Source: Candidatus Iainarchaeum sp.
GTDB lineage: Archaea; Iainarchaeota; Iainarchaeia; JAGGVJ01
NCBI GenBank assembly: GCA_021158055.1
Contig: JAGGVJ010000026.1
Location: forward strand, 1-59,456
Direction of reading: 5' to 3'
Length of the DNA stretch: 59,456 bases
Shown: positions 676 to 51,931 of the stretch, in pieces
Layout: each line of letters starts with the position of its first letter
Numbering within the stretch: the stretch's first letter is position 1
Position numbers and translations under genes: made by a program
Notes under the pieces: generated by a model
What the model was told of the DNA's origin: nothing
What the model saw: only the letters and a program-made list of their open reading frames with translations
Databases searched by the model: none

Positions 676-1083
676 ATGGACAAAGATAAGAAGAAAACAA
701 GCATACTTCCGGAAGTAACACTCATCTGGGAAACAAACGCGGAGCAACGTAGCGTTGATTTAGTATTACTCGAGTTCGAGGAATACACCCTTGAGGCCGT
801 GGAAAAAACCACGGAACCGGACATGCACGCTTACCTCCGGACTGTAAATGCTGTCATAAAAACAATTGACGGCAGTAAAGAGTGGGTAATTTCCCTCAAA
901 AATGTCGCGTATAATGAAAAGCGCAAATGGTGGAAAGTGACTGTCGAGGTCACCCCCTCCAACGAGGAATCATTTCAGTTAATCGGAATAACAACCGGAA
1001 CACTGAAAATAACATTGGAGAATGAAGAACAGATACTGCTAAGCGCGGTTGACGCAGGTATCAGAAAGTTCCAGAGGGCATGA
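676..1083 (+). CDS. Hypothetical soluble protein preceding the uS3-like gene
   Basis: 135 residues, charged and soluble, starting at ATG 676. The alternating hydrophobic pattern (for example VTLIWETN, WWKVTVEV, TGTLKITLEN) suggests a mostly beta protein. There is no membrane segment and no recognisable motif. It starts 13 nt after the membrane protein and its stop overlaps the next start by 4 nt (ATGA at 1080), so translation of the uS3-like protein is probably coupled to it. A role as a partner of that protein is possible but unproven. Confidence 0.65.
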   Translation: MDKDKKKTSILPEVTLIWETNAEQRSVDLVLLEFEEYTLEAVEKTTEPDMHAYLRTVNAVIKTIDGSKEWVISLKNVAYNEKRKWWKVTVEVTPSNEESFQLIGITTGTLKITLENEEQILLSAVDAGIRKFQRA

Positions 1084-4253: not shown

Positions 4254-4808
4254 ATGGACAAAACAATACGGCACCAAATCAGGCCCAAGATAGAGAGAAT
4301 CATCAGGAACAACAGGAAAATACCATTTATGGCATTTTATGACTCGTTCTCAGGTGACCCTCTTGAGCCAATCGTGATAAACTCAAAGAAACTCTGGGAA
4401 CCACCCACAGTTTCGGACACAAAGGAAACGGAAAGGCAAATCGCCACAAAGATACAGAAATCAATAGACGATAACCTTAACGTGATCTCAGACGTGCTTG
4501 ATATCAAAATAAAGCAAACCTCAAAAGAGACCGGGGTATACTACTTGCTGTCAAGCGATTGGGATGAAACCATCATCTTGCTCATGGACAGTTCATTCGG
4601 CAGGATAGTAATTGCCGTGGCAGGAAAACAAGATGAACTTGCAGCCATAATAAACAAAGTAATCAAAGAGTTCTATTATGCGGAACAAGAGCGCAACGTA
4701 ATCCTGGTGGCAAACACAAGCGAACCGGACGTAATAAAGATGTTTCAGGACACAACAACACGAACCGTGCCCAACTTGATATTAAAGCTGGGTTTCAGCA
4801 AAGGCTAA
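4254..4808 (+). CDS. Hypothetical soluble protein
   Basis: 184 residues. I chose ATG at 4254, 1 nt after the preceding stop, rather than the longer in-frame extension that would overlap the upstream gene by about 110 nt. An N-terminal basic helix (RHQIRPKIERIIRNNRK) is followed by a segment ending in beta-like strands (YYLLSSDWDETIILLMDSS, GRIVIAVAG) and an alpha/beta tail. No recognised motif. It is the last gene before the first tRNA-like leader at 4844. Confidence 0.65.
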   Translation: MDKTIRHQIRPKIERIIRNNRKIPFMAFYDSFSGDPLEPIVINSKKLWEPPTVSDTKETERQIATKIQKSIDDNLNVISDVLDIKIKQTSKETGVYYLLSSDWDETIILLMDSSFGRIVIAVAGKQDELAAIINKVIKEFYYAEQERNVILVANTSEPDVIKMFQDTTTRTVPNLILKLGFSKG

Positions 4809-4843
4809 CTTAACTTGGCCTTTATCGGAACGGAACAATCCAC

Positions 4844-4939
4844 GGCAGTTGGACTGCATGCCAGGCAAGCATAAACACTATTTTTCGGGTTCAAATCCCA
4901 CAACTGCCATCGCTTTGCCAAAGACGATCAGGGTAAAGC
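4844..4939 (+). ncRNA. tRNA-like structured leader, copy 1
   Basis: A perfect 8-bp acceptor-like stem joins GGCAGTTG (4844-4851) and CAACTGCC (4901-4908). Inside are a hairpin (TGCATG..CCAGG..CAAGCA with one mismatch) and a T-arm-like GGG-TTCAAAT-CCC placed directly before the 3' acceptor strand, as in a tRNA. A second hairpin follows: GCTTTGCC (4912-4919) with GGTAAAGC (4932-4939), where a G-U pair replaces the G-C of other copies. AAGGAGAC lies near 4953-4960. There is no anticodon arm of normal size, so this is not an ordinary tRNA gene. Confidence 0.7.
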
Positions 4940-5067
4940 AAAAACGCAACCAAAGGAGACAACATAACAAACAACAAAACAGAATTCACCCGGCAGAACA
5001 CACAGACAACAGAACGTCAAACCCCGTCGCATTTCAGAAATGAGAACGGGAACATTGAGGCAAAGTC

Positions 5068-5199
5068 ATGGAAAAATCAAACAAACCTAAAAAGTTTCAA
5101 CAAAAGACAGAACAGGCGTTTTTAAACGTGTTTAACAACGCAAGCCGACCACAAGCAGAGCCATATAATGAAAAAACAGACGAAATCCGCCGTTTATAA
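5068..5199 (+). CDS. Possible 43-residue basic peptide
   Basis: ATG 5068 opens 43 codons (MEKSNKPKKFQQKTEQAF start), lysine/glutamine-rich. The upstream GAGGCAAAG is only a weak ribosome site. A competing frame, open from an ATA codon at 4964 to TAA at 5123, lies just behind the strong AAGGAGAC site of leader 1, so the true product of this stretch is uncertain. It is included as a low-confidence call. Confidence 0.25.
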   Translation: MEKSNKPKKFQQKTEQAFLNVFNNASRPQAEPYNEKTDEIRRL

Positions 5200-5213
5200 C
5201 GTCTTTCGCGCTG

Positions 5214-5498
5214 TTGGCATTCAGTGCACTGTTTTGCATAATGGGAGCCATTATCTCCGAACCGATCATCATCGGCATGGGGCTGACAGCCACCCTGATA
5301 TTGTGTTTTCTTCTCAGGAACAAAACATCCATGGAAAGAACACTCAATAAAGGTAAATACATAATGTATGCACTCCTGCTGATGTGGGCAATATGCGGGG
5401 CATTAATGATCCTCAACTCCATTAACAACCCCCACAATGGTAACCGGAAACGCCAAACACCGGAAACGCTGAACACAGGGTATTTTGCTTCCCTTTGA
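5214..5498 (+). CDS. Small two-helix membrane protein, 5' end uncertain
   Basis: 94 residues from a TTG at 5214. There are two clear membrane helices, at about residues 4-33 (LFCIMGAIISEPIIIGMGLT) and 49-67 (YIMYALLLMWAICGALMIL), separated by a basic loop, then a polar tail. The natural N-terminus seems to lie in another frame: ATG 5168 gives MKKQTKSAV, a typical membrane-protein start, and a 1-nt shift near 5193 would continue it as ITSFALLAFSALFCI. A sequencing error or frameshift is therefore suspected. The stop codon lies inside the terminator hairpin that follows. Confidence 0.5.
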   Translation: MAFSALFCIMGAIISEPIIIGMGLTATLILCFLLRNKTSMERTLNKGKYIMYALLLMWAICGALMILNSINNPHNGNRKRQTPETLNTGYFASL

Positions 5499-5526
5499 TT
5501 TTTTCCGGAAGCACCCTTGCTTTTTT
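5487..5526 (+). terminator. Terminator-like hairpin (GCTTCC/GGAAGC plus T-run)
   Basis: GCTTCC at 5487-5492 pairs with GGAAGC at 5507-5512, followed by a T-run at 5521-5526. The same element recurs at 6447-6487 and 18446-18485. Confidence 0.6.
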
Positions 5527-5617
5527 ACCGGATGACAAGTACAGCACAAAGACACCTGACAAGCACAGCATAACGACACAATAAAGAAAACCGACATAAC
5601 AAAAGGAGAACAAACAA

Positions 5618-6073
5618 ATGAACACAATCAACTCCGGCGGACTGAACCAGCCACACTTTGAACAGTACATTCCATCTGTTGCAAGAATTTTACCTGGAAT
5701 CGTTGCCACAGAACTAACTGTCAGAAAAGCACCGTGGAACGAACCTGATGCAGTCATATCAAAAATTCTCTCTGATATGATTCTGGAAGCATCAGTGAAA
5801 CCCATAGCGCGAAAAATTGACCGCCTTGCAGGTTTCAATATCCCCCTACCCACACTGGTCCAAAAACCAGCACATTGGATTACGAAAATCAAGGGGATAA
5901 CATTTAAGACAAAAACCAGTGCCGACAAGAATTTTCCATTCTGCAGCATTGGCGTTCCAGGTAAAATACTGTCCAAAATTGGTGTGTCGGATACAAACGA
6001 CAGAATTGTACTGTTTTCAGCAGACAGAACAGCACCTGAAAATGAAAACAAATGGGAATTGCTCCTTATTTAA
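5618..6073 (+). CDS. Hypothetical protein
   Basis: 151 residues, starting at ATG 5618 with AAAGGAGAA 8 nt upstream. Mixed alpha/beta and moderately basic, with segments such as ISKILSDMILEASVKPIARK and GVPGKILSKIGVSD. No membrane segment or known motif. It has its own ribosome site but no tRNA-like leader immediately upstream; it follows the terminator-like hairpin at 5487 by about 90 nt. The stretch 6074-6189 after it holds no gene I can support. Confidence 0.55.
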   Translation: MNTINSGGLNQPHFEQYIPSVARILPGIVATELTVRKAPWNEPDAVISKILSDMILEASVKPIARKIDRLAGFNIPLPTLVQKPAHWITKIKGITFKTKTSADKNFPFCSIGVPGKILSKIGVSDTNDRIVLFSADRTAPENENKWELLLI

Positions 6074-6189
6074 TTTCCTTAAACATTGCATCGGTAAAGG
6101 TGGGTTAGTGGCTTTTCTGACCTTTCAGCAGGATCATTCGTACCGCTTCCACTGCCGAAAATGCAAATTAAGGAAAAACTTTTTCCCAA

Positions 6190-6297
6190 CAGTTAAAACC
6201 GCAGCCGGCCAACATGCGCCTATTTTTCGGGTTCGAATCCCGCAACTGCAATCACTTTGCAACCGGCAAAGCAAACCAAAAACAGCAACTTGCTGTT
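6190..6297 (+). ncRNA. tRNA-like structured leader, copy 2 (degenerate)
   Basis: The T-arm CGGG-TTCGAAT-CCCG is intact, but the internal hairpin is shortened by roughly 15 nt compared with other copies and the acceptor-like stem is weak (CAGTT 6190-6194 with AACTG 6244-6248, or GCAG with CTGC). The downstream hairpins are present: CTTTGC/GCAAAG (6255-6271) and AACAGCA/TGCTGTT (6281-6297). A strong AGGAGG and a small gene follow. Confidence 0.55.
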
Positions 6298-6317
6298 AAA
6301 AAACAACAGGAGGAAAA

Positions 6318-6419
6318 ATGTTCAAAAAAGACATGAAACGAACTATTTTCAGCTTACTGCTGGAAGTAATAACCGCCATATTAGTCTTTGTAAAGACTAA
6401 AATAAAGAACCTCAAGTAA
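6318..6419 (+). CDS. 33-residue single-helix membrane peptide
   Basis: ATG 6318 has an excellent Shine-Dalgarno (CAGGAGGAAAA) 5 nt upstream and directly follows structured leader 2. The peptide begins with a basic segment (MFKKDMKR), then a hydrophobic helix (TIFSLLLEVITAILVFV) and a basic tail (KTKIKNLK). This is typical of small membrane-bound regulators or toxins, but no specific family can be named. A terminator-like hairpin follows at 6447, so it is probably a one-gene unit. Confidence 0.6.
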   Translation: MFKKDMKRTIFSLLLEVITAILVFVKTKIKNLK

Positions 6420-6446
6420 CACCGCCCTGCCTCTAGTGCAAACTTT

Positions 6447-6487
6447 GTTTCCCTTTGATTTTTTCCGGAAACACCCCCTTTTTTTTT
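6447..6487 (+). terminator. Terminator-like hairpin (GTTTCC/GGAAAC plus T-run)
   Basis: GTTTCC at 6447-6452 pairs with GGAAAC at 6467-6472, followed by nine T residues. The loop is identical to that of the hairpin at 5487; the outer base pair changed C-G to T-A on both sides, so pairing is conserved. Confidence 0.6.
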
Positions 6488-6519
6488 CTGCTCTGCACAG
6501 GCAAAACATTTCTAAAACC

Positions 6520-6645
6520 GCAGCCGACCAACACACGCCAGGCATGTGCCACTATTTTTCGGGTTCGAATCCCACAGCTGCAATCGCTTTGCTAACACAA
6601 GCACAGCAACCGGCAAAGCAAACCAAAACAGCAAACCATGCTGTT
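6520..6645 (+). ncRNA. tRNA-like structured leader, copy 3
   Basis: The acceptor-like stem is GCAGC (6520-6524) with GCTGC (6577-6581). The fifth pair is C-G here but T-A in copies 1, 5, 6 and 7, which is a compensatory change. The internal hairpin is CACACGC-CAG-GCATGTG with one mismatch. The T-arm motif is GGG-TTCGAAT-CCC. Downstream hairpins are GCTTTGC/GCAAAGC (6586-6619) and AACAGC/GCTGTT (6627-6645). The gene at 6668 follows. Confidence 0.7.
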
Positions 6646-6667
6646 AAAAACCCAGAGGAGTAAAGAA

Positions 6668-7378
6668 TTGAATGACATAACAACAGTTTCCCAATTGCAG
6701 ACTGCAATGGAAACAAATAAAGACATAACACCGCAAATGACTGACAGAACACCAGCGATGGAAGCATTCTGGAACCTGTTAAACAAAGGGCAGATTCTTC
6801 CGTGTGGAGCTCCGACAGAAGAAAAGGGCAACGATCGGTTTGTACTGGTCTTAAGGAATCCCCGGAAACTAACCGAACGAGACTCCAAAAAAACCAAGTC
6901 AAAAATGACTGGAATTTGGAGAGAGCACAACGATCCAAAAAGCACGATAAACGTGCAGATTGCAGGGGAAACCCCGGTTAAACTGCGAATCGGAAAAGAA
7001 CCAGGAATAGTTCCCAACCTAAAAATGGATAAATGGGAAACCAGCCATGAGAACTTGCTTCTCTTATGCAAAAACCCAGACAATCCAAGAAGAACAGCCG
7101 GAACAAATTCTTTTTTGCTAATCGAATTTGGCAAAACAAGAACAAAAAACCTGAAACACCACCACAAAAACTCAACTCTCGCAATGTTAATAGGGAGACT
7201 TGTAGTGGTTTCAGACATTTCAACCCTGCGTGGCGTCAAGGAACTGGCTGACCAGTTCAAAGAAAAGATAGTCTGGATTGGGAAAAACAAGGCTGGTTAC
7301 ATAGTTGCTTACCTGAACATCAGAACCGTAGCGGAACCGATTAAAGCAACAACAAAATCAAAGGAAGACAATGGCTAA
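6668..7378 (+). CDS. Hypothetical protein, paralog of the 3557-4252 gene
   Basis: 236 residues from a TTG at 6668, chosen because CAGAGGAG at 6653-6660 is well placed for it; the upstream ATG at 6638 lies inside the hairpin of leader 3. Blocks shared with the 3557-4252 product (LLNKGQILPCGAP, LIGRLVVVSDIST, IVWIGKNKAGY) make the two divergent paralogs. The protein is soluble with a basic C-terminus. The stop overlaps the next start (7371), so the small basic protein downstream is co-translated. Confidence 0.65.
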   Translation: MNDITTVSQLQTAMETNKDITPQMTDRTPAMEAFWNLLNKGQILPCGAPTEEKGNDRFVLVLRNPRKLTERDSKKTKSKMTGIWREHNDPKSTINVQIAGETPVKLRIGKEPGIVPNLKMDKWETSHENLLLLCKNPDNPRRTAGTNSFLLIEFGKTRTKNLKHHHKNSTLAMLIGRLVVVSDISTLRGVKELADQFKEKIVWIGKNKAGYIVAYLNIRTVAEPIKATTKSKEDNG

Positions 7379-7493
7379 CAGAAAGAAAAAAAACCAAAAA
7401 GGCGAGGACAAGCCAAAAAAGGGTGAAAACAAGAGGAAGAGAGAACAAACCACCAAACAGAAATTGCAAAAGCTAAAGGAGAAAAAGGCCTAA
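7371..7493 (+). CDS. 40-residue highly basic peptide
   Basis: ATG 7371 overlaps the upstream stop by 8 nt. The peptide is almost wholly charged (MANRKKKNQKGEDKPKKGEN start, QKLQKLKEKKA end), with about 20 Lys/Arg residues and no hydrophobic core. It probably binds nucleic acid or acts as a basic partner, which is inference from composition only. A terminator hairpin follows 27 nt later, supporting a real gene end. Confidence 0.5.
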   Translation: MANRKKKNQKGEDKPKKGENKRKREQTTKQKLQKLKEKKA

Positions 7494-7519
7494 GACAATT
7501 TCAAGCAGTTAAAAAGAAA

Positions 7520-7558
7520 AGCAGTTGCAGATTCTGCCAAACTGCTGCTCTTTTTTTC
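7520..7558 (+). terminator. Strong terminator-like hairpin
   Basis: AGCAGTT (7520-7526) pairs with AACTGCT (7540-7546), with an inner GCAG/CTGC stem, followed by a long T-rich run. It ends the 6668-7493 unit. Confidence 0.65.
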
Positions 7559-7600
7559 TTTTTTTTATTTTTACTAACCAAAACGAACACAATATAGTTC

Positions 7601-7711
7601 TGTAGTCGACCCACATGCACCGGGCGTGTACCTCTTTTTTCGGGTTCGAATCCCGCAGCTGCAATCGCTCTGCAACCGGCAAAGCAAAACAAAACAGCAG
7701 GAACTCGCTGT
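7601..7711 (+). ncRNA. tRNA-like structured leader, copy 4
   Basis: The acceptor-like stem TGTAGT (7601-7606) pairs with GCTGCA using two G-U pairs. The internal hairpin is ACATGC-ACCGG-GCGTGT, where a T-G pair replaces the A-C mismatch of other copies. The T-arm is CGGG-TTCGAAT-CCCG. The next hairpin is GCTCTGC/GCAAAGC with one mismatch, then ACAGC/GCTGT (to 7711). The gene at 7728 follows with GGAGG. Confidence 0.65.
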
Positions 7712-7727
7712 AAATCTGGAGGAAACC

Positions 7728-8222
7728 ATGTTTAAAAAAACACACATAAATGCAGACTGGCTGCTAAATGCCAAACAAATAGAAAAGGCTGCAAACGGAC
7801 TTAGGAATTTTGAACCCCTAAGCAATACCACGTCTCCGCAACTACCTAACTTGGTTGAAACAGAAGAAGTCATTGCACAGGCAATGTTCTTTTTCAGAAA
7901 ACAATTTCTCCCATCAATGGTTAAACAACCTAAGAAACTGGAAAAGCATTTTCAGAGGTCGTATAATTTCGCAGATGACTGTGAAAGAATATTATTCCTG
8001 AAAAAAATTGCTCTTAGTACAAACACCCATGGACAAAGTGGGATATTACCCGTTGAAGCTGTTTACCTCTTGGGAAAAGAAAACCCGGTGGAAAGCTTAG
8101 ATCCTCTCTTGGAAATAATGAACAACAGCAACAACCCCCAGGTAAGAAACGCATCAGCTGCAATCATCACCAAAGTCCTGGAATTCCAAAACAGCAGGAT
8201 ACCTGCAGAAACTACAAAGTAA
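7728..8222 (+). CDS. Hypothetical helical protein with HEAT-like C-terminus
   Basis: 164 residues, starting at ATG 7728 with TCTGGAGGAAACC directly upstream. The C-terminal half (PVEAVYLLGKENPVESLDPL, then PQVRNASAAIITKVLEF) has the spacing and hydrophobic pattern of a HEAT/PBS-type helical repeat; the N-terminal half is helical and basic. The HEAT-like call is pattern recognition only. It is a single-gene unit between leader 4 and leader 5. Confidence 0.6.
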   Translation: MFKKTHINADWLLNAKQIEKAANGLRNFEPLSNTTSPQLPNLVETEEVIAQAMFFFRKQFLPSMVKQPKKLEKHFQRSYNFADDCERILFLKKIALSTNTHGQSGILPVEAVYLLGKENPVESLDPLLEIMNNSNNPQVRNASAAIITKVLEFQNSRIPAETTK

Positions 8223-8374
8223 AGACAAAAAGAAAGCTGCTCAGAACAAATGAAAAGCCGCTTAACAGACAAATCCAAACAAAAATTGGCTTCTTTTTTA
8301 ACGCCACTACTTTTTTCATCGCTCTCACAACGGCAAAACATGCCAAAATCGCTGAGAGACAACAAGTTTTCCAA

Positions 8375-8469
8375 GCAGTTGAACCGCACGCAACAAAGCA
8401 TGCAACACTATTTTTCGGGTTCAAATCCCGCAACTGCCATCGCTCTGCCAAAAAAGCAACCGGCAAAGC
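8375..8469 (+). ncRNA. tRNA-like structured leader, copy 5
   Basis: GCAGTTG (8375-8381) pairs with CAACTGC (8431-8437). The T-arm is CGGG (8416-8419), loop TTCAAAT, CCCG (8427-8430), stacked directly on the acceptor-like strand exactly as in a tRNA. The internal hairpin is GCACGC/GCATGC. The following hairpin is GCTCTGCC (8442-8449) with GGCAAAGC (8462-8469), one mismatch. The gene at 8501 starts 31 nt later. Confidence 0.7.
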
Positions 8470-8500
8470 AACAAGATACAATACAATAGGATAAAACCAA

Positions 8501-9478
8501 ATGAACAAACAATCAGCAGAACTAAACGAACTTCTGAAAAAGTTCTTCCCTAACATCAACGGGATTCTTGAAGGACTTGAACGAGAAAACTGGTCACAGG
8601 AAAGTGCCTTAAGCGCAGTATCAAGCATGCTTTCAAATGGACCTGTTCAGGAACTATTCCAGTTCAAAAGCAGAGTATTCCCCATGTACGTGGAAAACAT
8701 GGACCCGGAATGGTTCGGAATGCTAACCGCCGTTATTGTAGCGGAAGACATAGAAACGTTCTATATCCTGGGAGCTTTGATGGAGTTTCTCAAAAAAATC
8801 GATAGTGGTGCTCTTTCCACTAAAGATGAATTGATGCACGAGTTTTTCGCCATCACAAAAGAACTCACAAAAAATCGGGAAATGAGCAGGTTTGAGGAAA
8901 TCAGCGTTGTTGTCTGCTGCTCAACAGAAGAAGAGTTAGAAGCAGTAACAACTCAGCTTCGGGCCAACAAACTCTGGCAGAACGCCATAAACTACTTTGA
9001 TAAAGAAATTTATCCAAAAGTAAAAGCAATTCTGAACCTTGAAAAACCGGTTTTCGGAAGAACTTCCGCTGAATTTTTGGTGACCAACAATCAGGATGAT
9101 TTCCTGGCTAAATGCAAGGACAAGCCAGTTGTCATAATGCCAAAGCTAAGAAACGAAAACCAGCCTGACTACGAGCAGCTGATAGAAAAACTGCTTGAAA
9201 ACGGGTGCAAAATAACTGCGCCAACATGGTTAGTAACTTCCCCGAATAACACTCTTCTGGAAAGAAGAATAAAGGCAGTTAAAGAGCTCTCAAAGCAAAG
9301 AGACTGGAAAACCGAACTTGTCCTGCACACCGGAGGAATGGGCTTTTTCCCGGATACGAATCTGGAGGAGATTCAATCCACCTTAAGAATCAACGTGGAA
9401 CGGCAGGGCGTTCTTGAAATGGCCCAGGACATCGCAGACATAACCGGCGGAATAATCATAGTCACAGAAACGACGTAA
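8501..9478 (+). CDS. Hypothetical two-part protein
   Basis: 325 residues, starting at ATG 8501 with TAGGATAAA as a weak ribosome site. Residues 1-150 are helical (LNELLKKFFPNINGILEGLE, ALMEFLKKIDS). Residues about 200-325 look alpha/beta, with strands such as KPVVIMPKLRN, ELVLHTGGMGFF and GGIIIVTETT separated by helices. No known family or catalytic motif is recognised. A strong terminator follows, so leader 5 controls a single gene. Confidence 0.65.
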   Translation: MNKQSAELNELLKKFFPNINGILEGLERENWSQESALSAVSSMLSNGPVQELFQFKSRVFPMYVENMDPEWFGMLTAVIVAEDIETFYILGALMEFLKKIDSGALSTKDELMHEFFAITKELTKNREMSRFEEISVVVCCSTEEELEAVTTQLRANKLWQNAINYFDKEIYPKVKAILNLEKPVFGRTSAEFLVTNNQDDFLAKCKDKPVVIMPKLRNENQPDYEQLIEKLLENGCKITAPTWLVTSPNNTLLERRIKAVKELSKQRDWKTELVLHTGGMGFFPDTNLEEIQSTLRINVERQGVLEMAQDIADITGGIIIVTETT

Positions 9479-9526
9479 GCCTCAAAAACTAAATTTGATG
9501 GCTATCCGCAGGGAACAGTAAACTAA

Positions 9527-9560
9527 GTGTGGCTTACTCCCTTGCCACACACTTTTTTTT
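9527..9560 (+). terminator. Strong intrinsic-type terminator hairpin
   Basis: GTGTGGC (9527-9533) pairs perfectly with GCCACAC (9544-9550), followed by eight T residues. It separates the single-gene units to the left from the long operon to the right. Confidence 0.75.
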
Positions 9561-9629
9561 AAATTAAAAAATGAAAAATAAGTTGCTCAACTCTTACTTT
9601 AAAAAGCAAATCACAAGAGGTGAATGAAA

Positions 9630-10658
9630 ATGAAAACCTACTACTGCACACTCAAGATATACTTCATGAGAGACAAACCAGAAATAACTGATGAAGAAAT
9701 CGAAACCGTGAAAAGAATTTACTTAAAGGAGCTGGAAAAGAAAAAACCCGAGCTGCCAAACCAGGGGGCTCAAGTCACAATCGAAGCCACCACCTGCCAA
9801 CAGGCGCTCAACACAGCAGCCAACACGTACGAATTCTTAATACCTAAACCAAAATACAACACAACCAACGCAATTTGGGCCCACATAAGAAACTTAAACG
9901 AAAAAAACAAAAGCGTTCTGTTTTGGGGGCACATTGTTATCCTAAACAAGAAAAAAGAAGGTTTGAGCACTAGCCATCTTGCCTTGCCGCATGAAGAAGA
10001 CGAAGAACATTACCTCACTAAATTGGTGAACAAACTCACCAAGTCATTTCTGGATTTGTTTATTGGCCGTACTCCCAGCTCACCGCACAGCGAACACCAT
10101 CTTCTGATAGAAAGTATGCCCAACAAAGCAAAAACAACCTCACGGATAGAATATGTTGTAAATGAGATAACTAAAAAAATGCCTCCTTTGTTAAAGGAAA
10201 CGAACAAGGAAGCAAAAACAACAAAACAAGAAACAAGAGGAGAAAAAAAAGCAATGAACCCTTCTCTAAAATACAGCCTTGAGGTTGATTTTACCTCAAA
10301 AAACGGAAGCTCCCGCATAAGGTTGTTTGTCCCTGTAACAAACGGCAACAAAACCTACGCTATCCTGCCGGACATACAGACAAAAGCAGACAAAGTGTTG
10401 CTGCTCTACCAGGACTTCTCTTCAGGGGAATCAAAGGCAGGGGTGCTTTCAGACGTGCTTGTAACGTCGACATCAACCCAGTTGATCATTGACGGGAAAG
10501 AACCGGTAAATGAAGAAAATCCTTTTGGGAGCTGTTCTTCAATTGTAACAGTAAGCTCAACCAGAGAAGAAAACATAATACGTTCGTTGGGAAACGACCC
10601 ATCAGATTACGAAAAAGACCTTTCAAAGGTCTTGAAAAAGGCGCTTGCTCACCGTTAG
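9630..10658 (+). CDS. Hypothetical two-domain protein, first gene of the Cdc48-like operon
   Basis: 342 residues from ATG 9630; the ATG at 9624 is too close to the GAGGTGA at 9617-9623. Residues 1-185 form one alpha/beta unit (YYCTLKIYFM start), followed by a lysine-rich linker (KETNKEAKTTKQETRGEKK). A second unit (about 209-342) starts MNPSLKYSLEVDF and has beta strands such as SSRIRLFVPVTNG and ADKVLLLYQDF. A ribosome-site-like AGAGGAG precedes ATG 10254 inside the linker, so the second unit may also be made alone or may once have been a separate gene. Function unknown. It heads six closely spaced genes (to 15852). Confidence 0.65.
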   Translation: MKTYYCTLKIYFMRDKPEITDEEIETVKRIYLKELEKKKPELPNQGAQVTIEATTCQQALNTAANTYEFLIPKPKYNTTNAIWAHIRNLNEKNKSVLFWGHIVILNKKKEGLSTSHLALPHEEDEEHYLTKLVNKLTKSFLDLFIGRTPSSPHSEHHLLIESMPNKAKTTSRIEYVVNEITKKMPPLLKETNKEAKTTKQETRGEKKAMNPSLKYSLEVDFTSKNGSSRIRLFVPVTNGNKTYAILPDIQTKADKVLLLYQDFSSGESKAGVLSDVLVTSTSTQLIIDGKEPVNEENPFGSCSSIVTVSSTREENIIRSLGNDPSDYEKDLSKVLKKALAHR

Positions 10659-10699
10659 TTCGCGGGATGCCTTTGACAATAAAAAGATAGGAGGAAACC

Positions 10700-11080
10700 A
10701 TGACATCACTAATCATGAAGGTACCTTCCAAAGACGGTGCCAAAGAACTGCTGGTATTCTGCGGAGAACAAGAAACAACTGACGTGTCGATTGAACTCCA
10801 GCAAGGAATACTGTACAAACTCAAAAACGGAGTACTGCTGATTCTCCAGTACCTGCCTATAAACACTTCTGACATCATTGTTGCAAAAGCCGCGGAAATA
10901 CACTTGTTCCATGGAGAAAGCATCAAGGCAGAACTGGTTGGAAACGCTCCGCTTACCCGAGTATACGCAATCGGGAAAGAACCACTGATAAGGGAACTGA
11001 AAAGAATCAAACAGCACACAAGATTCCGCTGGGACGAACAGCGTGCAAGTATGGATCCCGTAAGCAGAATAGAAGTTTAG
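10700..11080 (+). CDS. Hypothetical small protein preceding the Cdc48-like ATPase
   Basis: 126 residues, starting at ATG 10700 with ATAGGAGGAAACC upstream. Mostly beta-like strands in the N-terminal two thirds (KELLVFCGEQ, VLLILQYLPI), then a basic C-terminus (LIRELKRIKQHTRFRWDEQ). No recognised motif. It ends 9 nt before the ATPase gene, so it is a candidate adaptor or substrate-handling partner, judged by position only. Confidence 0.65.
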   Translation: MTSLIMKVPSKDGAKELLVFCGEQETTDVSIELQQGILYKLKNGVLLILQYLPINTSDIIVAKAAEIHLFHGESIKAELVGNAPLTRVYAIGKEPLIRELKRIKQHTRFRWDEQRASMDPVSRIEV

Positions 11081-11089
11081 GAGGAAGAA

Positions 11090-13252
11090 ATGACTGCAAA
11101 TATCAACGTAAAACTGATGAGAGACGACGAAATCCAAAACGGTGCGTGCCGAATAAGCAAGGCACTGTCAACCGAACTGAGAATAAGTCAGGGTCAGGTA
11201 ATCGAGATAGCCGGAATCAACAGCAAAAGACGTGCTATAGTTGTCATCTCCGAAGTTTCGGAAGCACCCGGTGATGCAGAAACAAAGCAACTCATCTGGG
11301 CAAACAACGAAACAATTCTCAATTCCAATGTGGATTTTGAGGGACGAGCACAGGTGAGCGCGATTCAAAAAGTCCGCGAGGCAAAAGAAATAACCGTGGC
11401 ACCGTTGAACACTTCCATAATACCATCCCTGCTGGATCAAAACAAGTTCAAAAACAGCGTAACAGGGCGCTTCTTCGCAAAGGGGAACATAATATCAAGC
11501 ATGGGAAGCTTCAGCGTTGAGGGCTCAGGCACTGATGGGCATGACAACTTCATCGAATACAAGGTAAAAATAGTGTCAACAAAGCCGGATTCATCGGTTC
11601 AGGTCACTAAAAAAACCAACATAATATTCAAGGAACCCATACGCGGAGAAATTGACTTTGGAGACATCGGAGGATTGAATAGCCAGATAGAAACAATGCA
11701 GGAACTGGTGGAATGGCCGCTTCGCTACCCTGAAATATTCGAGCATTTAGGGCAGGATTCCCCAAAAGGCGTTCTTCTGCACGGTCCGCCCGGAACCGGA
11801 AAAACCCATCTGGTAAGAGCAATAGCAAGATCTGCAGATGCTCACTTCATATACGTGAACCCCGGGGAAATCAGCGCTGATCCCACTCAGGCAAAAACCC
11901 GCATTGACGAGTTGTTCAACGAAGCAAACAATCACCCTGGCCCGGCAATAATCTTTTTGGACGAAATTGACGCAGTTGCGCCAAAGAGAAGCGAGTTAAG
12001 AAACCCAATCTATTCCAGCATAGTGTCGCATCTGCTCACAAAAATAGACGGCATGGAAACCAATTCGCAAATCATGGTGATTGGCGCTACAAACAGCCCA
12101 AACAGCATTGATGAAGCCATGCGCAGGCCTGGGCGACTTGACATTGAAATAGAGATCCCATCCCCGGACAAGGAAGGGAGAATGGAAATCCTCGAAATTC
12201 ATACACGGGGAATGCCGTTTGAGACCTCAAAGCAAAGAATTGACATTCTGGAGCCCATAAGCGAGGCAACTCACGGGTTTGTCGGAGCAGACCTGATGTT
12301 TCTCTGCAAATCTGCAGCACTTGCGTGCATAAGACGGAACTGGCTGGACATCGAACTAGACGAAAACGAACACATCCCGCCAAAGGTTCTGCGGACACTG
12401 CGGGTGAATCTGGGTGATTTCAAAGAAGCTTTGAAAACAACAACACCCTCTGTTGGCCGGGATATCATCGTGGAGAAACCAGATGTCGACCTGAAAAAAG
12501 ACATCGGTGGACTGAACGAAGCCAAAAAAGAGCTTTTGGAGACCGTTGTCAGGGCATGGGCAAACAAAGAGGAAATCGCAAGGCTAAACCCCTCAACCAA
12601 AATCCCAAGGGGAATCGTATTGCACGGACCCCCGGGAACCGGAAAAACATTCCTTGCAAAAGGACTGGCAAAAGAAATGGGTTTTCATTTGATTGTGGTA
12701 AAACCAAGCGACGTCCTGTCAAAATGGCACGGCGAATCCGAAGGTACAATAAGCAAGGTGTTCAGCAAGGCAAAATCACTTGCACCCTGCATCATTGTAT
12801 TCGAAGAGTTTGAATCACTGGTGCCTGTCCGCGGACAAGCGTCGGATTCTGCCGGGGCTGCAAACAACAGATTAGTGAACCAGATACTCACTGAAATGGA
12901 TGGTTTTGACAGCCTTACAGACGTCATTGCCATAGCGACAACAAATCGCATTGACATGATTGACCCTGCAGTACTGCGAAGCGGCAGATTTTCTGTAACG
13001 ATACCTGTATCAGATCCTGACGAAGGCGAAAGAGAAGACATCTTCAGAAAGATCTTCAAGAGCGCCACAATCAAAGACGACATTGATTTCAATGAACTTG
13101 CAATGGCAAGCGATGGCCTGAATGGCTCTGACATAAAGGAAGTCCTTGACAGGGCAGTGTACAAAACCATTACCCTCAAAGGAAAGCACATAAAAAAAGA
13201 AAGTGTGCTGGCAGCGATAGAAGACATAAAGGAAACAAAGAAGGAAAACTAA
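11090..13252 (+). CDS. Cdc48/p97-like double AAA+ ATPase
   Basis: 720 residues, close to the usual archaeal Cdc48/VAT length of about 730. The N-terminal about 180 residues occupy the place of the Cdc48 N domain (substrate/adaptor binding) but are divergent. D1 has Walker A GPPGTGKT starting at residue 232, Walker B IIFLDEID and arginine-finger region RRPGRLD. D2 has Walker A GPPGTGKT from residue 513, a Walker B reading IIVFEEFE (Glu where Asp is usual), and LRSGRFS. Such ATPases unfold or extract proteins using ATP as hexamers. The start is ATG 11090 with TAGGAGGAAGA. It shares an operon with an archaemetzincin-like protein, a membrane protein and an AN1 zinc-finger protein, all types linked to Cdc48 in eukaryotes. 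It is probably a specialised paralog rather than the housekeeping Cdc48. Confidence 0.9.
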
Positions 13253-13323
13253 GGAACATCAGTTGTTTCTCTTTCCTTTTTTATGTCAAAAAATTAAAAA
13301 AACAAAATTTGGAGGCATAAGCA

Positions 13324-14007
13324 ATGAGATCAACATACACAATAAATTTCTTCAGAAACTCTGAAGAGATTAAACTAAATGAACTGGAGAGGATAGCCAA
13401 AGAGCTTTCAAATACGACAACATTCAATTGCAAAATTGAAATACACAAAAGCCCGCTTGAAAAAGCAAGGGGTTCAGAACTGAATAGCTCATTCTTTGAG
13501 GAAGGCTGCAATCTTGACGATTCTTTTGTCTTTGCGGCATTTGTTGAAGAGAACATGCCCGGTGTTAACACTGACCATATACTGATTGGACAAAGTTCAA
13601 GGGGATGCCTGGTCAGGGTAAAAGAAAACAGTGATGCAACAATGCATAACTTACTTCACCAACTCGGGCACGTGTTTGGAATTGAGGACCACTGCACAAA
13701 AACAAAGTGCGTAATGTACCCCCTCTACATAAAAGGCGCGGTGGACTTCAAAAACCCTTTCTGCAGCGACGGGAATAGCAGTTGTGGAAGCATAATTGAA
13801 GAAGCAGTGTTTCACAAACAGGACCCTGACCACTGGGATAACATTGCCACAGGCAGTTGCGAAAACACAACTTCAGCTCACGAACTGGCCGGAAAACCGC
13901 AAATCAAGCACAGCACTCGGAGAGACACAGACTTCCTGAAGAAAATAAAAACACACGTTGAAAGGCCAACTGAAAGAAGCCTCATACAACTACTGGAGGA
14001 AACATAA
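13324..14007 (+). CDS. Archaemetzincin-like protein with catalytic Glu replaced by Gln
   Basis: 227 residues, starting at ATG 13324 with TTTGGAGGC upstream. Residues about 105-160 match the archaemetzincin zinc signature: HQLGHVFGIEDHC (from H112) followed by a C-x4-C-V-M pattern, then VDFKNPFC and a further Cys, as in the structural zinc site. The general-base Glu of HExxH is Gln113 (codon CAA), and one extra residue lies between the Gly and the third His. The protein may bind zinc but is predicted to be proteolytically weak or inactive. The family consists of metzincin peptidases of poorly known role. The C-terminal 60 residues are polar and basic. The stop overlaps the next start by 1 nt, so it is co-translated with the membrane protein downstream. 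Confidence 0.75.
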   Translation: MRSTYTINFFRNSEEIKLNELERIAKELSNTTTFNCKIEIHKSPLEKARGSELNSSFFEEGCNLDDSFVFAAFVEENMPGVNTDHILIGQSSRGCLVRVKENSDATMHNLLHQLGHVFGIEDHCTKTKCVMYPLYIKGAVDFKNPFCSDGNSSCGSIIEEAVFHKQDPDHWDNIATGSCENTTSAHELAGKPQIKHSTRRDTDFLKKIKTHVERPTERSLIQLLEET

Positions 14008-14999
14008 TGTTCTTATCCACCCACGCATACCCCGGACATGACTACATACTCCTCAGCATGACAGAGAGTCTTGTGCTTATGATTGCTGTGATAATCTTTA
14101 ATGCGGTTGTAGCAAGCCTTGTTGTATCACTGAAAAACAAGTACCTTGAAAACAACTACAGGATAAGTGACCTGTCAGAAGACAAAATTGCGGTTTTATT
14201 CCTTGTACTTGTAAACACAACAATCATGCTTCTGTTCATCAAAGACGGAACACACAACATCATGCACTTCTGGCCAGGTGACTTTATGAATGCTGTCCTG
14301 TTAACTGCCATTGCTGCATTGGGAGCACTGGTAACAGCAAACATATTCCTTGGAACATACAGGTTCACGGAAGCACCCCCGGAAGGCCAACAATCAGTGA
14401 AGGCAACCTTCAATTCAGATGACGGGCGACTTCAGATAAACCCACAAAAACCCAAAGAATGGTCAATGGGTTTGTGCGATGCGCCGATAGTAACCAAAGA
14501 AGCGCTGAGATCCGCAGCCAGAATAGCAATTGTCGGAGCGATTGTCTTTCTGTTGATGCTCGTGCTATCCAGTTTTAAGGTGTCAATAAGCCGGACAGAA
14601 TTATCATGCATATTTGGCATGTACCTGGCAGTAGACATTATTCTGGCAATGAGGCTTCAGGCCATACTTGGCAGAAGAAATATGGACGAGCGCTCATTCC
14701 TTGCAAAGCCCGAAAACATGTTTTATTACAACCAACAAAAACACTTAAAGCAAAGAGCATCCGGGAAGCAAACCTTTGCAACAACTGACAAAGATAAACT
14801 GATATTGCTGATTATGCTATTAATAGGTGGAGGAATTACATCCTTAATCCTATTGATAATAATAATCGGAACGATAACAAGCAGCATCGGTTACTCCATA
14901 GCTAACATGAGCGAAAACGACAACTACATGCCACACTTCCTTATTAGTTTGGTGGTCTTCTACCTGTTGTTTTTTTACGGAGAAGATGTCCTTTCCTAA
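14007..14999 (+). CDS. Seven-helix membrane protein
   Basis: 330 residues, starting at ATG 14007 with TGGAGGA upstream and overlapping the previous stop. I count about seven membrane helices, with cores LVLMIAVIIFNAVVASLVV, VLFLVLVNTTIMLLFI, AVLLTAIAALGALVTANIF, AIVGAIVFLLMLVLSS, GMYLAVDIILAM, LILLIMLLIGGGITSLILL and LISLVVFYLLFFYG. A soluble loop of about 60 residues lies between helices 3 and 4. No transporter or enzyme motif is recognised. In context it could anchor the Cdc48-like machinery at the membrane, which is inference. Confidence 0.75.
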   Translation: MFLSTHAYPGHDYILLSMTESLVLMIAVIIFNAVVASLVVSLKNKYLENNYRISDLSEDKIAVLFLVLVNTTIMLLFIKDGTHNIMHFWPGDFMNAVLLTAIAALGALVTANIFLGTYRFTEAPPEGQQSVKATFNSDDGRLQINPQKPKEWSMGLCDAPIVTKEALRSAARIAIVGAIVFLLMLVLSSFKVSISRTELSCIFGMYLAVDIILAMRLQAILGRRNMDERSFLAKPENMFYYNQQKHLKQRASGKQTFATTDKDKLILLIMLLIGGGITSLILLIIIIGTITSSIGYSIANMSENDNYMPHFLISLVVFYLLFFYGEDVLS

Positions 15000-15051
15000 C
15001 GAGACAAGAAACCAAGAACACACAAAAACAAAGAGAATAGGAGGAATCAAG

Positions 15052-15852
15052 ATGAGTGAACAAGTATACACCTACAACAATCCCTGCGGAGGAATCCCTG
15101 CAGAAAAAATGCTTTTAGCATGCACTGCAATTGCTGAAACCTTTGCAAACGGAACAGAAAGCTTTGAGACAGCCATCAACGAAAACAGGAAAAAGCTTTC
15201 ATGCATCGCAGGAATATCTGTTGAACGGACAGCAGTGCTTAAAGGACTTGTAAAGAACTCGATAAAAGCGCCAGAAAAGGGTGTGAAAAAGGCAGGCAAC
15301 ATCCAAAAGGCGATAATCGAACTGAACCCGAACAAACCCATAAACGCAAAGGCAGGAAAGGGTTCAAGAACAGGAAAAGTTTTCAAACCGCCCGTTACAG
15401 TGGTGGCTGAAATGGAAAAAGACAATCCTGAAAGTGCCAAAGTGCAGATAATAATGCCTTTTTCTGCTGAAGACGATTCGGAATGCGACCAACTGGCAAA
15501 GGACATAATAAAAGACCTTTATGTCATGGCCACTGGAAAGCACATTACTGACAGTCAGATACAATTCATGGAACCAGCCCCCCTCAACCAAAGTGTGTGC
15601 GTGGAATGCGGAGAAAAAACACTCCATATCCACTACTGTCCGCTTTGTGGAAACCGATACTGCTCAAAACACAGGAGCCCGGTAAACCACAGGTGCTGCA
15701 ATTTGTCTGCAGTAACAAAAGAGCACAAAACAGCAAATCCAAAAGGGACAATCACCAAGGCAGAGGGAACAACCGGCATGGAACACGAATCCACAGCAGG
15801 ACACGAGCCCACAGCAATAACTGTAGAACGCAGAACGCAAATGTGCGGGTGA
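15052..15852 (+). CDS. AN1-type zinc-finger protein
   Basis: 266 residues. ATG 15052 was chosen because TAGGAGGAATCAAG sits directly before it; the ORF also extends upstream. Residues 183-215 form a textbook AN1 finger: C183-x2-C186-x9-C196-x2-C199-x4-C204-x2-H207-x5-H213-x-C215. Residues 1-180 are helical to mixed, with a lysine-rich stretch near 75-120. AN1 proteins in eukaryotes (ZFAND family, Cuz1) act with p97/Cdc48 and the proteasome, so an AN1 gene in a Cdc48-like operon is meaningful. The C-terminal 50 residues are polar and probably disordered. A duplicated terminator follows at 15888. Confidence 0.85.
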   Translation: MSEQVYTYNNPCGGIPAEKMLLACTAIAETFANGTESFETAINENRKKLSCIAGISVERTAVLKGLVKNSIKAPEKGVKKAGNIQKAIIELNPNKPINAKAGKGSRTGKVFKPPVTVVAEMEKDNPESAKVQIIMPFSAEDDSECDQLAKDIIKDLYVMATGKHITDSQIQFMEPAPLNQSVCVECGEKTLHIHYCPLCGNRYCSKHRSPVNHRCCNLSAVTKEHKTANPKGTITKAEGTTGMEHESTAGHEPTAITVERRTQMCG

Positions 15853-15887
15853 ACACCCCCTTGAAAAAGGATACCCACCTAATCTGA

Positions 15888-15927
15888 GGGGTTGGCTTTA
15901 TTTTTCACGCTGCCCCACGGTTTTTTT
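15888..15927 (+). terminator. Terminator-like hairpin, copy A of a duplicated element
   Basis: GGGG plus TGGC (15888 on) pairs with GCTG plus CCCC across the loop TTTATTTTTCAC, followed by seven T residues. The core is repeated at 16584-16623. Confidence 0.55.
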
Positions 15928-16008
15928 ATTACCCATGTAACGGCAAAGAAGGCAGAATAATACACATCCCCCTTCACCGTATTGCACAAGCAAAACCCAA
16001 TTGCATCA

Positions 16009-16123
16009 GCAGTTGAACCGCACGCAACCGGCGCATGCCCCTATTTTAGGGTTCAAATCCCGCAACTGCCATCGCTTTGCAAACCGGCAAAGCAAACAAC
16101 GCAAACAGCAAAAATTCGCTGTT
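16009..16123 (+). ncRNA. tRNA-like structured leader, copy 6
   Basis: GCAGTTG (16009-16015) pairs with CAACTGC (16063-16069). The internal hairpin is GCACGC/GCATGC. The T-arm motif is GGG-TTCAAAT-CCC. Following hairpins are GCTTTGC (16074-16080) with GCAAAGC (16087-16093), and AACAGC (16104-16109) with GCTGTT (16118-16123). The sequence is nearly identical to copy 7 from GCATCAGCAG onward. Confidence 0.7.
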
Positions 16124-16146
16124 AAACAAAGTTTAGAAGTGTAAAA

Positions 16147-16515
16147 ATGGACCGAGAAACCAACACAGTGCACATAAGAACAGCAGTCATAGAAGAAGAG
16201 ATCAGCACAGATAAAAGACTGATGCTGCATCAGGACACTGAATTCAAGGAAAACATTGCCTGCGCAGGCATAATGTGTGAAGATAGCCTTTGGCATATCA
16301 ACGCAAAGAACATCGACACAAACGGCGGCGACATCGAGGCATGGAATATTGATGTAAAAGGAAACATCAACACGTGGAACATCCTTGCAGAGGGAAACAT
16401 CAACGCAGGAGACATCAATGCGGACACCCTCAAAGCAAAGAACATCCTTGCAAGCGACATGAAAGTAAAAGGACCTATTGTCAAGATATACCAAATAAAC
16501 AAAAGGACAAATTAA
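16147..16515 (+). CDS. Small beta-solenoid-like repeat protein
   Basis: 122 residues, starting at ATG 16147 with a weak ribosome site 23 nt after leader 6. From about residue 55 a short repeat of the form x-N/D-I-x-A/T-x-x recurs (AKNIDTNGGDIEAWNIDVKG, then GNINTWNILAEG, GNINAGDINA, KAKNILAS). Isoleucines spaced 5 to 7 residues apart suggest a right-handed beta-helix like those of polymer-forming or phage spike/baseplate proteins. The N-terminal 50 residues are charged. The exact role is unknown. Confidence 0.65.
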   Translation: MDRETNTVHIRTAVIEEEISTDKRLMLHQDTEFKENIACAGIMCEDSLWHINAKNIDTNGGDIEAWNIDVKGNINTWNILAEGNINAGDINADTLKAKNILASDMKVKGPIVKIYQINKRTN

Positions 16516-16583
16516 CGCAAAAAGGAAGATCAACGCAACAAAGATCAAAGAGTGCAAATGAGTACTCCTTGATTAGTAAATGG

Positions 16584-16623
16584 AAGGGCCGGCTTTATTT
16601 TTCACGCTGCCCACTCTCCTTTT
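16584..16623 (+). terminator. Terminator-like hairpin, copy B of a duplicated element
   Basis: GGGCCGGC pairs imperfectly with GCTGCCC across the loop TTTATTTTTCAC. The core is identical to the hairpin at 15888, with a weaker T-run at the end. Confidence 0.5.
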
Positions 16624-16640
16624 ACACAGAGGAAAAGATA

Positions 16641-16886
16641 ATGAACAATAAAGACATGGAACAAATCCTGAAACTCATCAAAAAACCCAGGTATAATGGG
16701 TGCATAACACGTACGACAGTTATACACATAACTAAACTGTCTGCTCAAAGGATTGATGATGCTGCGCACTGCTTGGAAAAACTTGACATAATCAACATCA
16801 TTTATGGCAAGCATCACGGAATGAGAACAAGCACCCACTACCAATTGATCAGTTGGGAGGAAGAGATACAGAGATATTTTCATTAA
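16641..16886 (+). CDS. Small winged-helix-like DNA-binding protein
   Basis: 81 residues from ATG 16641, with AGAGGAAAAG just upstream. The pattern is helix (MEQILKLIKKP), helix (TRTTVIHITKLS), helix (RIDDAAHCLEKLDII), then a strand and wing (NIIYGKHHGMRTSTHYQLI). This fits a compact winged helix-turn-helix such as a plasmid or virus regulator. It is a fold guess from sequence pattern, not a family match. It is the only likely transcription regulator I see in the left region. Confidence 0.6.
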   Translation: MNNKDMEQILKLIKKPRYNGCITRTTVIHITKLSAQRIDDAAHCLEKLDIINIIYGKHHGMRTSTHYQLISWEEEIQRYFH

Positions 16887-16916
16887 CAACCGAAAAAGAC
16901 AAAGCCACTCGCATCA

Positions 16917-17006
16917 GCAGTTGAACCGCACGCAACGGAGCATGCACCTATTTTAGGGTTCGAATCCCGCAACTGCAATCGCTTTGCCAACAGCAACCGG
17001 CAAAGC
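16917..17006 (+). ncRNA. tRNA-like structured leader, copy 7
   Basis: GCAGTTG (16917-16923) pairs with CAACTGC (16970-16976). The T-arm motif is GGG-TTCGAAT-CCC. The internal hairpin is GCACGC/GCATGC. The following hairpin is perfect: GCTTTGCC (16981-16988) with GGCAAAGC (16999-17006). The gene at 17031 follows with CGGAGAC. Confidence 0.7.
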
Positions 17007-17030
17007 AATAAAGACATCGGAGACAACATA

Positions 17031-18445: not shown

Positions 18446-18485
18446 GCTTCCTTTAATTTTTGGGAAGCACCCCTTCTTTTTTTCT
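18446..18485 (+). terminator. Terminator-like hairpin (GCTTCC/GGAAGC plus T-run)
   Basis: GCTTCC (18446-18451) pairs with GGAAGC (18463-18468), followed by CTTCTTTTTTT. It is the third copy of the element seen at 5487 and 6447. Confidence 0.6.
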
Positions 18486-18867: not shown

Positions 18868-18876
18868 TTTATATAT
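18868..18876 (+). promoter_or_regulatory. Probable TATA box of the HerA-like operon
   Basis: TTTATATAT lies about 42-50 nt before the ATG at 18918, predicting a transcript start near 18895 and a short leader. Confidence 0.5.
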
Positions 18877-19084: not shown

Positions 19085-19522
19085 ATGGCAATAGAAGAAC
19101 TATACTTACTGGGTGGAGGCGCGTTATTGTTATTGGGAATATCTTATTATTACATCAAATCAAAATCAGCCAACAAGTCAAAAGCAGATCCTCTTGTGAT
19201 ACAGTTTTACACTGAAAACGAAGACAAAATCGTCAAAACAATGGATGGCCTCAACTGTATTACAAAAAGGAACTACGGGCAAAAACTCTCCCCTGAAATA
19301 GAAGAACACCCGACCGTTTCCTCAATCGCGAGAATGATGGCAGAAAGCATAAACAGCCAGGCCGGAGACAACTCATTAAAGGCGTTCCAGATTCTTGAAG
19401 AAAACAAACCGAGAACACTTGCCCAGACAGAAGCACTGAAAACCTACTTCAAGACAAAGGAAAAATACTACGAAGCCCTTGCAAAAAACGGAGTGGTAGT
19501 CAACCCCGACCAGGAACTTTAA
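19085..19522 (+). CDS. Single-pass membrane protein of the HerA-like operon
   Basis: 145 residues, starting at ATG 19085 with AAGAGGTGAGGAA upstream. One membrane helix near the N-terminus (residues 6-24, LYLLGGGALLLLGISYYYI) is followed by a basic stop-transfer segment (KSKSANKSK) and a soluble helical domain of about 110 residues. The topology suggests a helical domain anchored to the membrane on the cytoplasmic side. It ends 12 nt before the ATPase gene, so it may tether or regulate that ATPase. Confidence 0.7.
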   Translation: MAIEELYLLGGGALLLLGISYYYIKSKSANKSKADPLVIQFYTENEDKIVKTMDGLNCITKRNYGQKLSPEIEEHPTVSSIARMMAESINSQAGDNSLKAFQILEENKPRTLAQTEALKTYFKTKEKYYEALAKNGVVVNPDQEL

Positions 19523-19534
19523 ACGTGAAGCAAA

Positions 19535-33112: not shown

Positions 33113-33190
33113 TGGTGGGGCCGCCGCGATTTGAACGCGGGTTTCTACCTCCCCGAGGTAGGGGGATGGACCAAACTACCCTACGGCCCC
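33113..33190 (-). tRNA. tRNA-Pro (anticodon GGG)
   Basis: Acceptor stem GGGGCCG/CGGCCCC, anticodon arm CTACC-TCGGGGA-GGTAG giving anticodon GGG, T-arm CCGCG-TTCAAAT-CGCGG, discriminator A and an encoded CCA (33113-33115). No intron. It lies 3 nt downstream of RpoN. Confidence 0.95.
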
Positions 33191-51930: not shown

Positions 51931-51931
51931 G

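Follow-up and report, generated by a model that had tools for sequence, protein, structure and literature searches.

The DNA analysed here (the window; 59,456 nucleotides (nt), positions 1 to 59,456 of contig JAGGVJ010000026.1, assembly GCA_021158055.1, from the archaeon Candidatus Iainarchaeum sp.) begins within an array of genes read in one direction. Nearly all of these genes are ORFans, as judged by a Pfam scan of their proteins and by PHROGs, and the recognisable ones encode a divergent second uS3, a CDC48-like ATPase, a weak M54-like protease and an AN1-like zinc finger. Distributed through the array are copies of a structured leader that joins an acceptor-like stem to a T-arm as in transfer RNA (tRNA). 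Direct observation covers the elements themselves, the conservation of their structure, their location 5' of genes, the lack of TATA boxes around them and their confinement to one island. The leaders are best described as working like t-elements, the tRNA-like processing signals of other systems; their membership in that class is putative, cleavage being its defining property.

A T-arm pattern search was followed by a search with R1, a covariance model derived from eight copies, both over the whole genome (1.15 Mb, 45 contigs). Twelve copies scored E < 2e-5 with R1, and a thirteenth, degenerate one reached 19.6 bits. The seven leaders of the original prediction were all found at their positions in the window, and the covariance-model check proposed there added six more, within the terminal 4 kb at the right end of contig C20 (locus L017). 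All 13 have the same (+) orientation, and neither search found a leader elsewhere in the genome. As the end of C20 and the start of the window both lie inside the gene array, the right end of C20 probably adjoins the left end of the window, in which case the array would measure at least 22 kb. The T-arm motif TTTTTCGGGTTCRAATCCC, with up to three mismatches allowed, has seven matches in the window, all at leaders, where shuffled sequence would give 0.11. Functionally the weakest of the window leaders are copies 1 and 2. The start after copy 1 has apparently decayed (GGAGACAACATAACA versus GGAGACAACATAATG at copy 7), and copy 2, like L017:10257, is degenerate. Applied to a further 86 genomes of the class, which represent the whole phylum as sampled and include none of the same family, R1 found no leader (a marginal match at L019, E 0.005, was judged to be chance), and exact leader patterns were absent from the genome-contig and viral-contig collections, where records of the same genome may be hidden from search. 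The array proteins tried against viral contigs, plasmids and phages had no match, nor did array proteins in PHROGs, and the open reading frame (ORF) at 8501-9478 had none in the other class genomes searched.

Read 5' to 3', a leader comprises the acceptor-like stem (usually GCAGTTG/CAACTGC), an internal hairpin of 3-7 pairs, a linker and a T-arm with the T-loop TTCRAAT. The 3' strand of the acceptor stem is followed by N-ATC and then by hairpin 2 (GCTTTGCC/GGCAAAGC), with a third hairpin in some copies. From the T-loop to the acceptor end the 3' strand measures 11 nt, a distance constant across the clear copies. The copies agree closely in a 31-nt core (mean identity 0.86), whereas the 40-nt flanks are not conserved (0.32 and 0.33). 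In a hand-made structural alignment, which leans towards structure, 208 of 229 cells are paired. In the acceptor both sides have changed at pairs 4 and 5, in the T-stem at pairs 3 and 4 and in hairpin 2 at pair 1 (acceptor pair 7 is doubtful). The strongest compensatory changes come from the additional copies on C20: L017:9728 is compensated at acceptor pairs 4 and 5 (GCAACT/AGTTGC versus GCAGTT/AACTGC) and L017:8592 in the T-stem (TCAGG/CCTGA). Among row shuffles, 0.02% reached the observed pairing and 0.3% had as many pair types, figures that overstate the case because the rows are related paralogs. RNAalifold run on a MAFFT alignment recovered three pairs, all in the T-stem, since MAFFT does not align the acceptor strands correctly where copies are short; pair counts were therefore taken from the hand-made alignment. 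Single-sequence folds beat shuffles in most copies (z down to -3.6), the exceptions being copies 2 and 4, and in copy 6 a competing hairpin is favoured over the T-arm. The internal hairpin beats shuffled sequence only when the copies are combined (Fisher P ~0.002, the rows not being independent).

The structural reading of the original prediction, namely an acceptor-like stem, internal hairpin, T-arm and second hairpin in which pairing is kept despite sequence change, thus holds. Pair 5 of the acceptor is T-A in copies 1, 5, 6 and 7 (and in copy 2 also), C-G in copy 3 and T-G in copy 4, and the G-U pair reported in hairpin 2 of copy 1 is present. The statement that the T-arm is placed exactly as in a tRNA was correct as to a canonical T-arm near tRNA spacing and incorrect as to exactness, the stack being one pair short. 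That the leaders are not ordinary tRNAs was confirmed, and that candidate was rejected: ARAGORN called none of them, and the Rfam tRNA model does not match them (in the stretch 4800-8600 it gave nothing up to E 10). At gathering scores Rfam matched no leader, the only matches in the window being tRNAs elsewhere; T-box and the other leader or cis-regulatory families were likewise without a match, and a known Rfam leader was rejected on that ground. The D-arm and anticodon arm of a tRNA are not present in the leaders. Between the acceptor-like stem and the T-arm there is normally one small hairpin, although L017:9728 may have two. The leader T-arm is identical to T-arms of host tRNAs (e.g. CGGGTTCAAATCCCG). 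The acceptor sequence GCAGTTG occurs in none of the 32 tRNA-model matches of the genome, and no host tRNA parent was found. Tandem att sites derived from the 3' halves of a host tRNA were also rejected, since the 5' acceptor strand is present, co-varies and is not shared with host tRNAs.

Some observations concern the tRNAs of this genome themselves. The tRNA-Pro (ggg) at window 33113-33190 (- strand) is an ARAGORN call that lies below the Rfam tRNA gathering score. Two weak tRNA-model matches on contig C16 (81499-81566, 68 nt, 31.9 bits, and 84015-84066, 52 nt, partial) may represent unusual tRNAs, or ones that are split or decayed; many other tRNAs of the genome contain introns. Neither 5S ribosomal RNA (rRNA) nor RNase P RNA was detected when Rfam was run over 412 kb of the genome.

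A Shine-Dalgarno (SD)-like motif and a start codon follow the leader by 22-128 nt in 10 of the 13 copies. The leaders had been placed at the start of transcription units, which promoter analysis contradicts. The best TATA score averaged 4.1 in 12 leader intervals versus 6.9 in 162 controls (P = 1.3e-5), the controls being intergenic intervals or gene starts from 400 kb of the genome plus the rest of the window, and scores of at least 7.5 were reached in 0% of leader intervals versus 36% of controls. Over 21.5 kb of array the + strand holds no strong TATA box where about 3.7 are expected. The - strand is likewise free of them, and thus the + strand deficit may partly reflect composition. Towards the left edge of the array, leaders lie ~340 and ~830 nt downstream of the closest strong TATA boxes (L017 7769 and 8899). 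Copy 1 begins 36 nt downstream of the stop of ORF 4254-4808, with neither terminator nor TATA box in between, and copy 7 lies 30 nt downstream of the stop of ORF 16641-16886. Given these TATA-poor intervals, the closeness of copies 1 and 7 to preceding stops and the distant boxes at the left end, the leaders, on the evidence of canonical promoters, sit away from transcription starts. The one multi-gene unit that has no leader (Table 1) is preceded by a TATA-like box, TTTAAATT, at 9558. The TTTATATA-type promoter found just outside the array, before an operon encoding a CedD-like ATPase, recurs in related context at L017 8899, the array left end, and illustrates the form that promoters take in this organism.

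Many units end in a hairpin with a T-rich loop (GGC-TTCTTTTTTTAC-GCC and two related types), of which no exact or near copies were found outside the array. Between the hairpins at 5486 and 6446 a compensatory change from C-G to T-A keeps the stem. The T-run sits in the loop, so that termination within it would lose the stem, unlike the case of a terminator hairpin. The hairpin at 16583-16612 leaves no room for a usual promoter before the ORF that follows, which suggests read-through.

Table 1. Leaders, unit-end hairpins and related features; positions refer to the window unless locus L017 on contig C20 is named
Feature	Position	Strand	Details
Leader copy 1	4845-4940	+	R1 88.2 bits; fold z -2.35; acceptor GCAGTTG/CAACTGC with 7/7 pairs, T-arm, hairpin 2
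Leader copy 2, degenerate	6189-6273	+	R1 74.1 bits; fold z -0.26; acceptor 5/7 pairs
Leader copy 3	6520-6620	+	R1 88.6 bits; acceptor GCAGC/GCTGC, internal hairpin CACA/TGTG, hairpin 2
Leader copy 4	7602-7686	+	R1 89.1 bits; two G-U pairs in acceptor; internal hairpin ACATGC/GCGTGT
Leader copy 5	8375-8470	+	R1 100.5 bits; fold z -3.06; ribosome-binding site, gene start 31 nt downstream
Leader copy 6	16009-16094	+	R1 95.2 bits; fold z -2.88
Leader copy 7	16917-17007	+	R1 101.2 bits; fold z -3.25, 0/200 shuffles; gene start 24 nt downstream
Six C20 leaders	L017 8112, 8592, 9728, 10257, 11015, 11629	+	R1 search
3' hairpin, T-rich loop	5486-5513	+	TGCTTCC-CTTTGATTTTTTCC-GGAAGCA; only similar copy also in array
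3' hairpin, T-rich loop	6446-6473	+	TGTTTCC-CTTTGATTTTTTCC-GGAAACA
Unit-end element	8283-8310	+	GGC-TTCTTTTTTAAC-GCC; three further copies on C20, all within array
Unit-end hairpin	15886-15915	+	GGGG-TT-GGC-TTTATTTTTCAC-GC-T-GCCC
Unit-end hairpin	16583-16612	+	second of the 15886 type; 28 nt upstream of ORF 16641 start
Unit-end hairpin	18446-18468	+	GCTTCC-T-rich-GGAAGC; array right end
Further unit-end hairpins	L017 10161, 10946, 11556		
Only multi-gene unit without leader	9624-15852	+	ORFans, CDC48-like AAA ATPase, M54-like protease, AN1-like zinc finger
Strong TATA box	18868-18875	+	TTTATATA; just outside array, before CedD-like operon

At window 104-128 an inverted copy of the hairpin-2 3' arm (CAACCGGCAAAGC, - strand) stands beside GGCTTCTT, as in the unit-end hairpins, and is perhaps an inversion remnant. 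The promoter region of the CedD-like operon resembles L017 8856-8928. On L017, at the left end of the array, positions 7755-7899 and 8885-9032 form a 150-bp promoter/leader duplicate of 66% identity with TATA boxes, and the second of these is followed by ~800 bp without a clear gene.

Two pairs of ORFans in the array are paralogous (3557/6638 and 17031/17970), and the units at L017:9728 and L017:11015 are alike from the T-arm into the first codons of the gene. The shared sequence and the ORFan paralogs indicate that the array grew at least partly by duplication. Tetranucleotide use is atypical in parts of the array (z 4.3 and 4.4), and the region has the look of an island that is foreign or evolving fast. 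The second uS3 (window 1080-1742), amid the ORFans, has KH and S3_C domains and scores 152 bits with NCBIfam PRK04191; the other uS3-like gene (50851-51939) lies in a ribosomal gene cluster. The CDC48-family AAA ATPase (11090-13252) scores 570 bits against a family cut-off of 803, and the ORFan operon around it includes the protease, which is archaemetzincin-like, and the AN1-like zinc finger. Just right of the array, window 19085-22153 encodes a small membrane-like protein and a CedD/HerA-like DNA-translocating ATPase; the latter had no counterpart at E 1e-20 in 54 other class genomes.

Of the three roles put forward in the original prediction, tRNA punctuation is the best supported, because the leader intervals are TATA-poor, some leaders are intercistronic and t-elements are known in Archaea. 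We tentatively favour the view that the leaders are t-elements at which cleavage by RNase Z and/or RNase P generates the 5' ends of messenger RNAs (mRNAs). Two attributes of t-elements are seen here: an acceptor-like stem stacked on a T-arm, with 11 pairs, constant spacing and both-side changes, and a location directly at a gene or mRNA end, given the SD-like motifs and start codons described above. The acceptor/T-arm half of a tRNA is the part read by tRNA end-processing enzymes; as the T-arm is kept and a normal anticodon arm is missing, the part retained in the leaders is what those enzymes read. No CCA is encoded after the acceptor stem, which suits RNase Z cleavage.

In the mechanism we envisage, the leaders would punctuate the transcripts of one foreign-looking gene island. 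We infer transcription shared across units, with cleavage at the leaders. The 11-pair coaxial stack and canonical T-loop would be recognised in RNA by the tRNA end-processing enzymes of the host, and RNase Z would cut just 3' of the acceptor stem, with RNase P perhaps cutting at its 5' edge. After the cut, the mRNA on the 3' side would have a clean 5' terminus at hairpin 2 or a few bases upstream of it, a short distance ahead of the ribosome-binding site, and 5' monophosphate ends are predicted at ATCGCTTTGC. The T-rich-loop hairpins at unit ends may stop or shield mRNA 3' ends. It is conceivable, if somewhat doubtful, that the island uses anticodon-less tRNA mimics in place of promoters and that host enzymes cut one long transcript into many mRNAs. 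A prokaryote would then be punctuating its protein-coding genes in the manner of mitochondria, with dedicated tRNA mimics as the marks, a proposal we make with considerable reserve.

Several points weigh against the t-element reading. Its main weakness is that the unit-end T-runs resemble archaeal terminators; if they stop all transcripts, the downstream units need their own, non-canonical promoters. The acceptor/T-arm stack has 11 pairs rather than the 12 of tRNA, several copies carry mismatched pairs, and the covariation comes from paralogs in one genome with few independent lineages. The asymmetry between A-C mismatches and G-U pairs served as a test of RNA versus DNA, and since the counts are similar (10 and 8), the pairs reveal neither the folding strand nor the nature of the nucleic acid. 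Hoelzle et al. 2012 reportedly saw no cleavage in vitro of other predicted Haloferax tRNA-like elements, and hence the fold alone is no proof of cleavage.

The leaders might instead be a shared regulatory 5' untranslated region, the fold being bound by an island-encoded or tRNA-binding host protein that controls translation or stability of all units with no cutting. We consider this rather unlikely. The fixed position before genes with the SD downstream, the conservation of the element amid unconserved flanks and the presence of hairpin 2, sometimes with hairpin 3, after the element all accord with it, but by itself it leaves the absence of TATA boxes and the intercistronic copies 1 and 7 unexplained, and no Rfam cis-regulatory family matched.

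It is unlikely that the leaders were merely duplicated and have no processing role, being either a non-canonical promoter in or near the repeat or a tRNA-derived relic spread by tandem unit duplication. Three stems show compensatory changes, evidence that the fold is under selection, the identity of 0.32 over the 40 nt upstream indicates no shared upstream promoter motif, and the acceptor sequence is that of no host tRNA. These facts must be set against the greatest similarity being between neighbouring leaders (copies 6/7 and 2/3/4), as tandem duplication predicts, the terminator-like T-runs at unit ends and the existence of degenerate copies (copy 2 and L017:10257).

The suggestion that the leaders border mobile or shuffled cassettes, with folded DNA serving as an integron-like recombination site and cassette capture enlarging the array, fails where it is testable and is very improbable, recombination sites being unlikely here: although the array consists of promoter-poor one-way ORFans each with a structured site, parts of it have atypical composition and a DNA structure is compatible with the near-equal counts of A-C and G-U, the integron attC was rejected because its core pair (RYYYAAC ... 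GTTRRRY) occurs in only 1 of 13 elements (2.5% for a random window), no recombinase was found among the Pfam-scanned proteins of the array (the only region searched), the elements hold a fixed relation to the start codon, and homology between some units extends into N-terminal codons, as in duplication and unlike site-specific joining.

If the leaders are indeed cut as t-elements, they would constitute a prokaryotic operon system in which mRNA 5' ends are set by tRNA mimics rather than promoters. A dozen natural variants would then reveal what RNase Z and RNase P need when there is no anticodon arm, and a foreign island would be borrowing an essential host pathway for its expression.

In metazoan mitochondria tRNAs punctuate the promoter-poor polycistronic transcript between genes; those punctuation marks are functional tRNAs, whereas the leaders are not tRNAs. 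Integron cassettes, those of Archaea included (PMC9668308), resemble the array in being one-way, promoter-poor ORFan arrays with a structured repeat per gene. In contrast to them, the leaders have no attC core motifs, no IntI tyrosine recombinase was found among the Pfam-scanned proteins of the array, to which that search was confined, and the repeat is fixed 5' of the gene. The mascRNA and menRNA of MALAT1 and MEN-beta (PMC4919922) also have, within a long transcript, a tRNA-like fold at which RNase P and RNase Z cleave, but these are at the 3' ends of eukaryotic non-coding RNAs whereas the leaders are 5' of archaeal coding genes. According to the account in PMC11658184, t-elements define mRNA ends in plant mitochondria (Forner et al. 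2007); as described there, they are tRNA-like, lie at mRNA ends, are cut by RNase P and RNase Z and are not used in translation. The same source has them homologous to tRNA genes, unlike the leaders with their lack of a host tRNA parent and of a normal anticodon arm.

The original statement that no described family resembles the leaders was therefore too strong, t-elements being a described kind. As summarised in PMC4326828 and PMC3296008, a tRNA-like element upstream of the 5S rRNA of H. volcanii is cut by tRNase Z (Hoelzle et al. 2008, 2012), and in the same organism a CRISPR RNA placed between two t-elements is released by RNase P plus tRNase Z (PMC4326828, PMC4946936, PMC3296008). The leaders are likened to the Haloferax t-element through its description in these citing papers. 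On that description both are archaeal tRNA-like structures directly upstream of a product, with 3' cleavage making the 5' end of the product there. The Haloferax element is a single copy before an rRNA with its enzymology shown, whereas here 13 copies, putatively cleaved, precede protein genes. What is new here is the t-element-like form in multiple copies, without a normal anticodon arm and ahead of protein genes.

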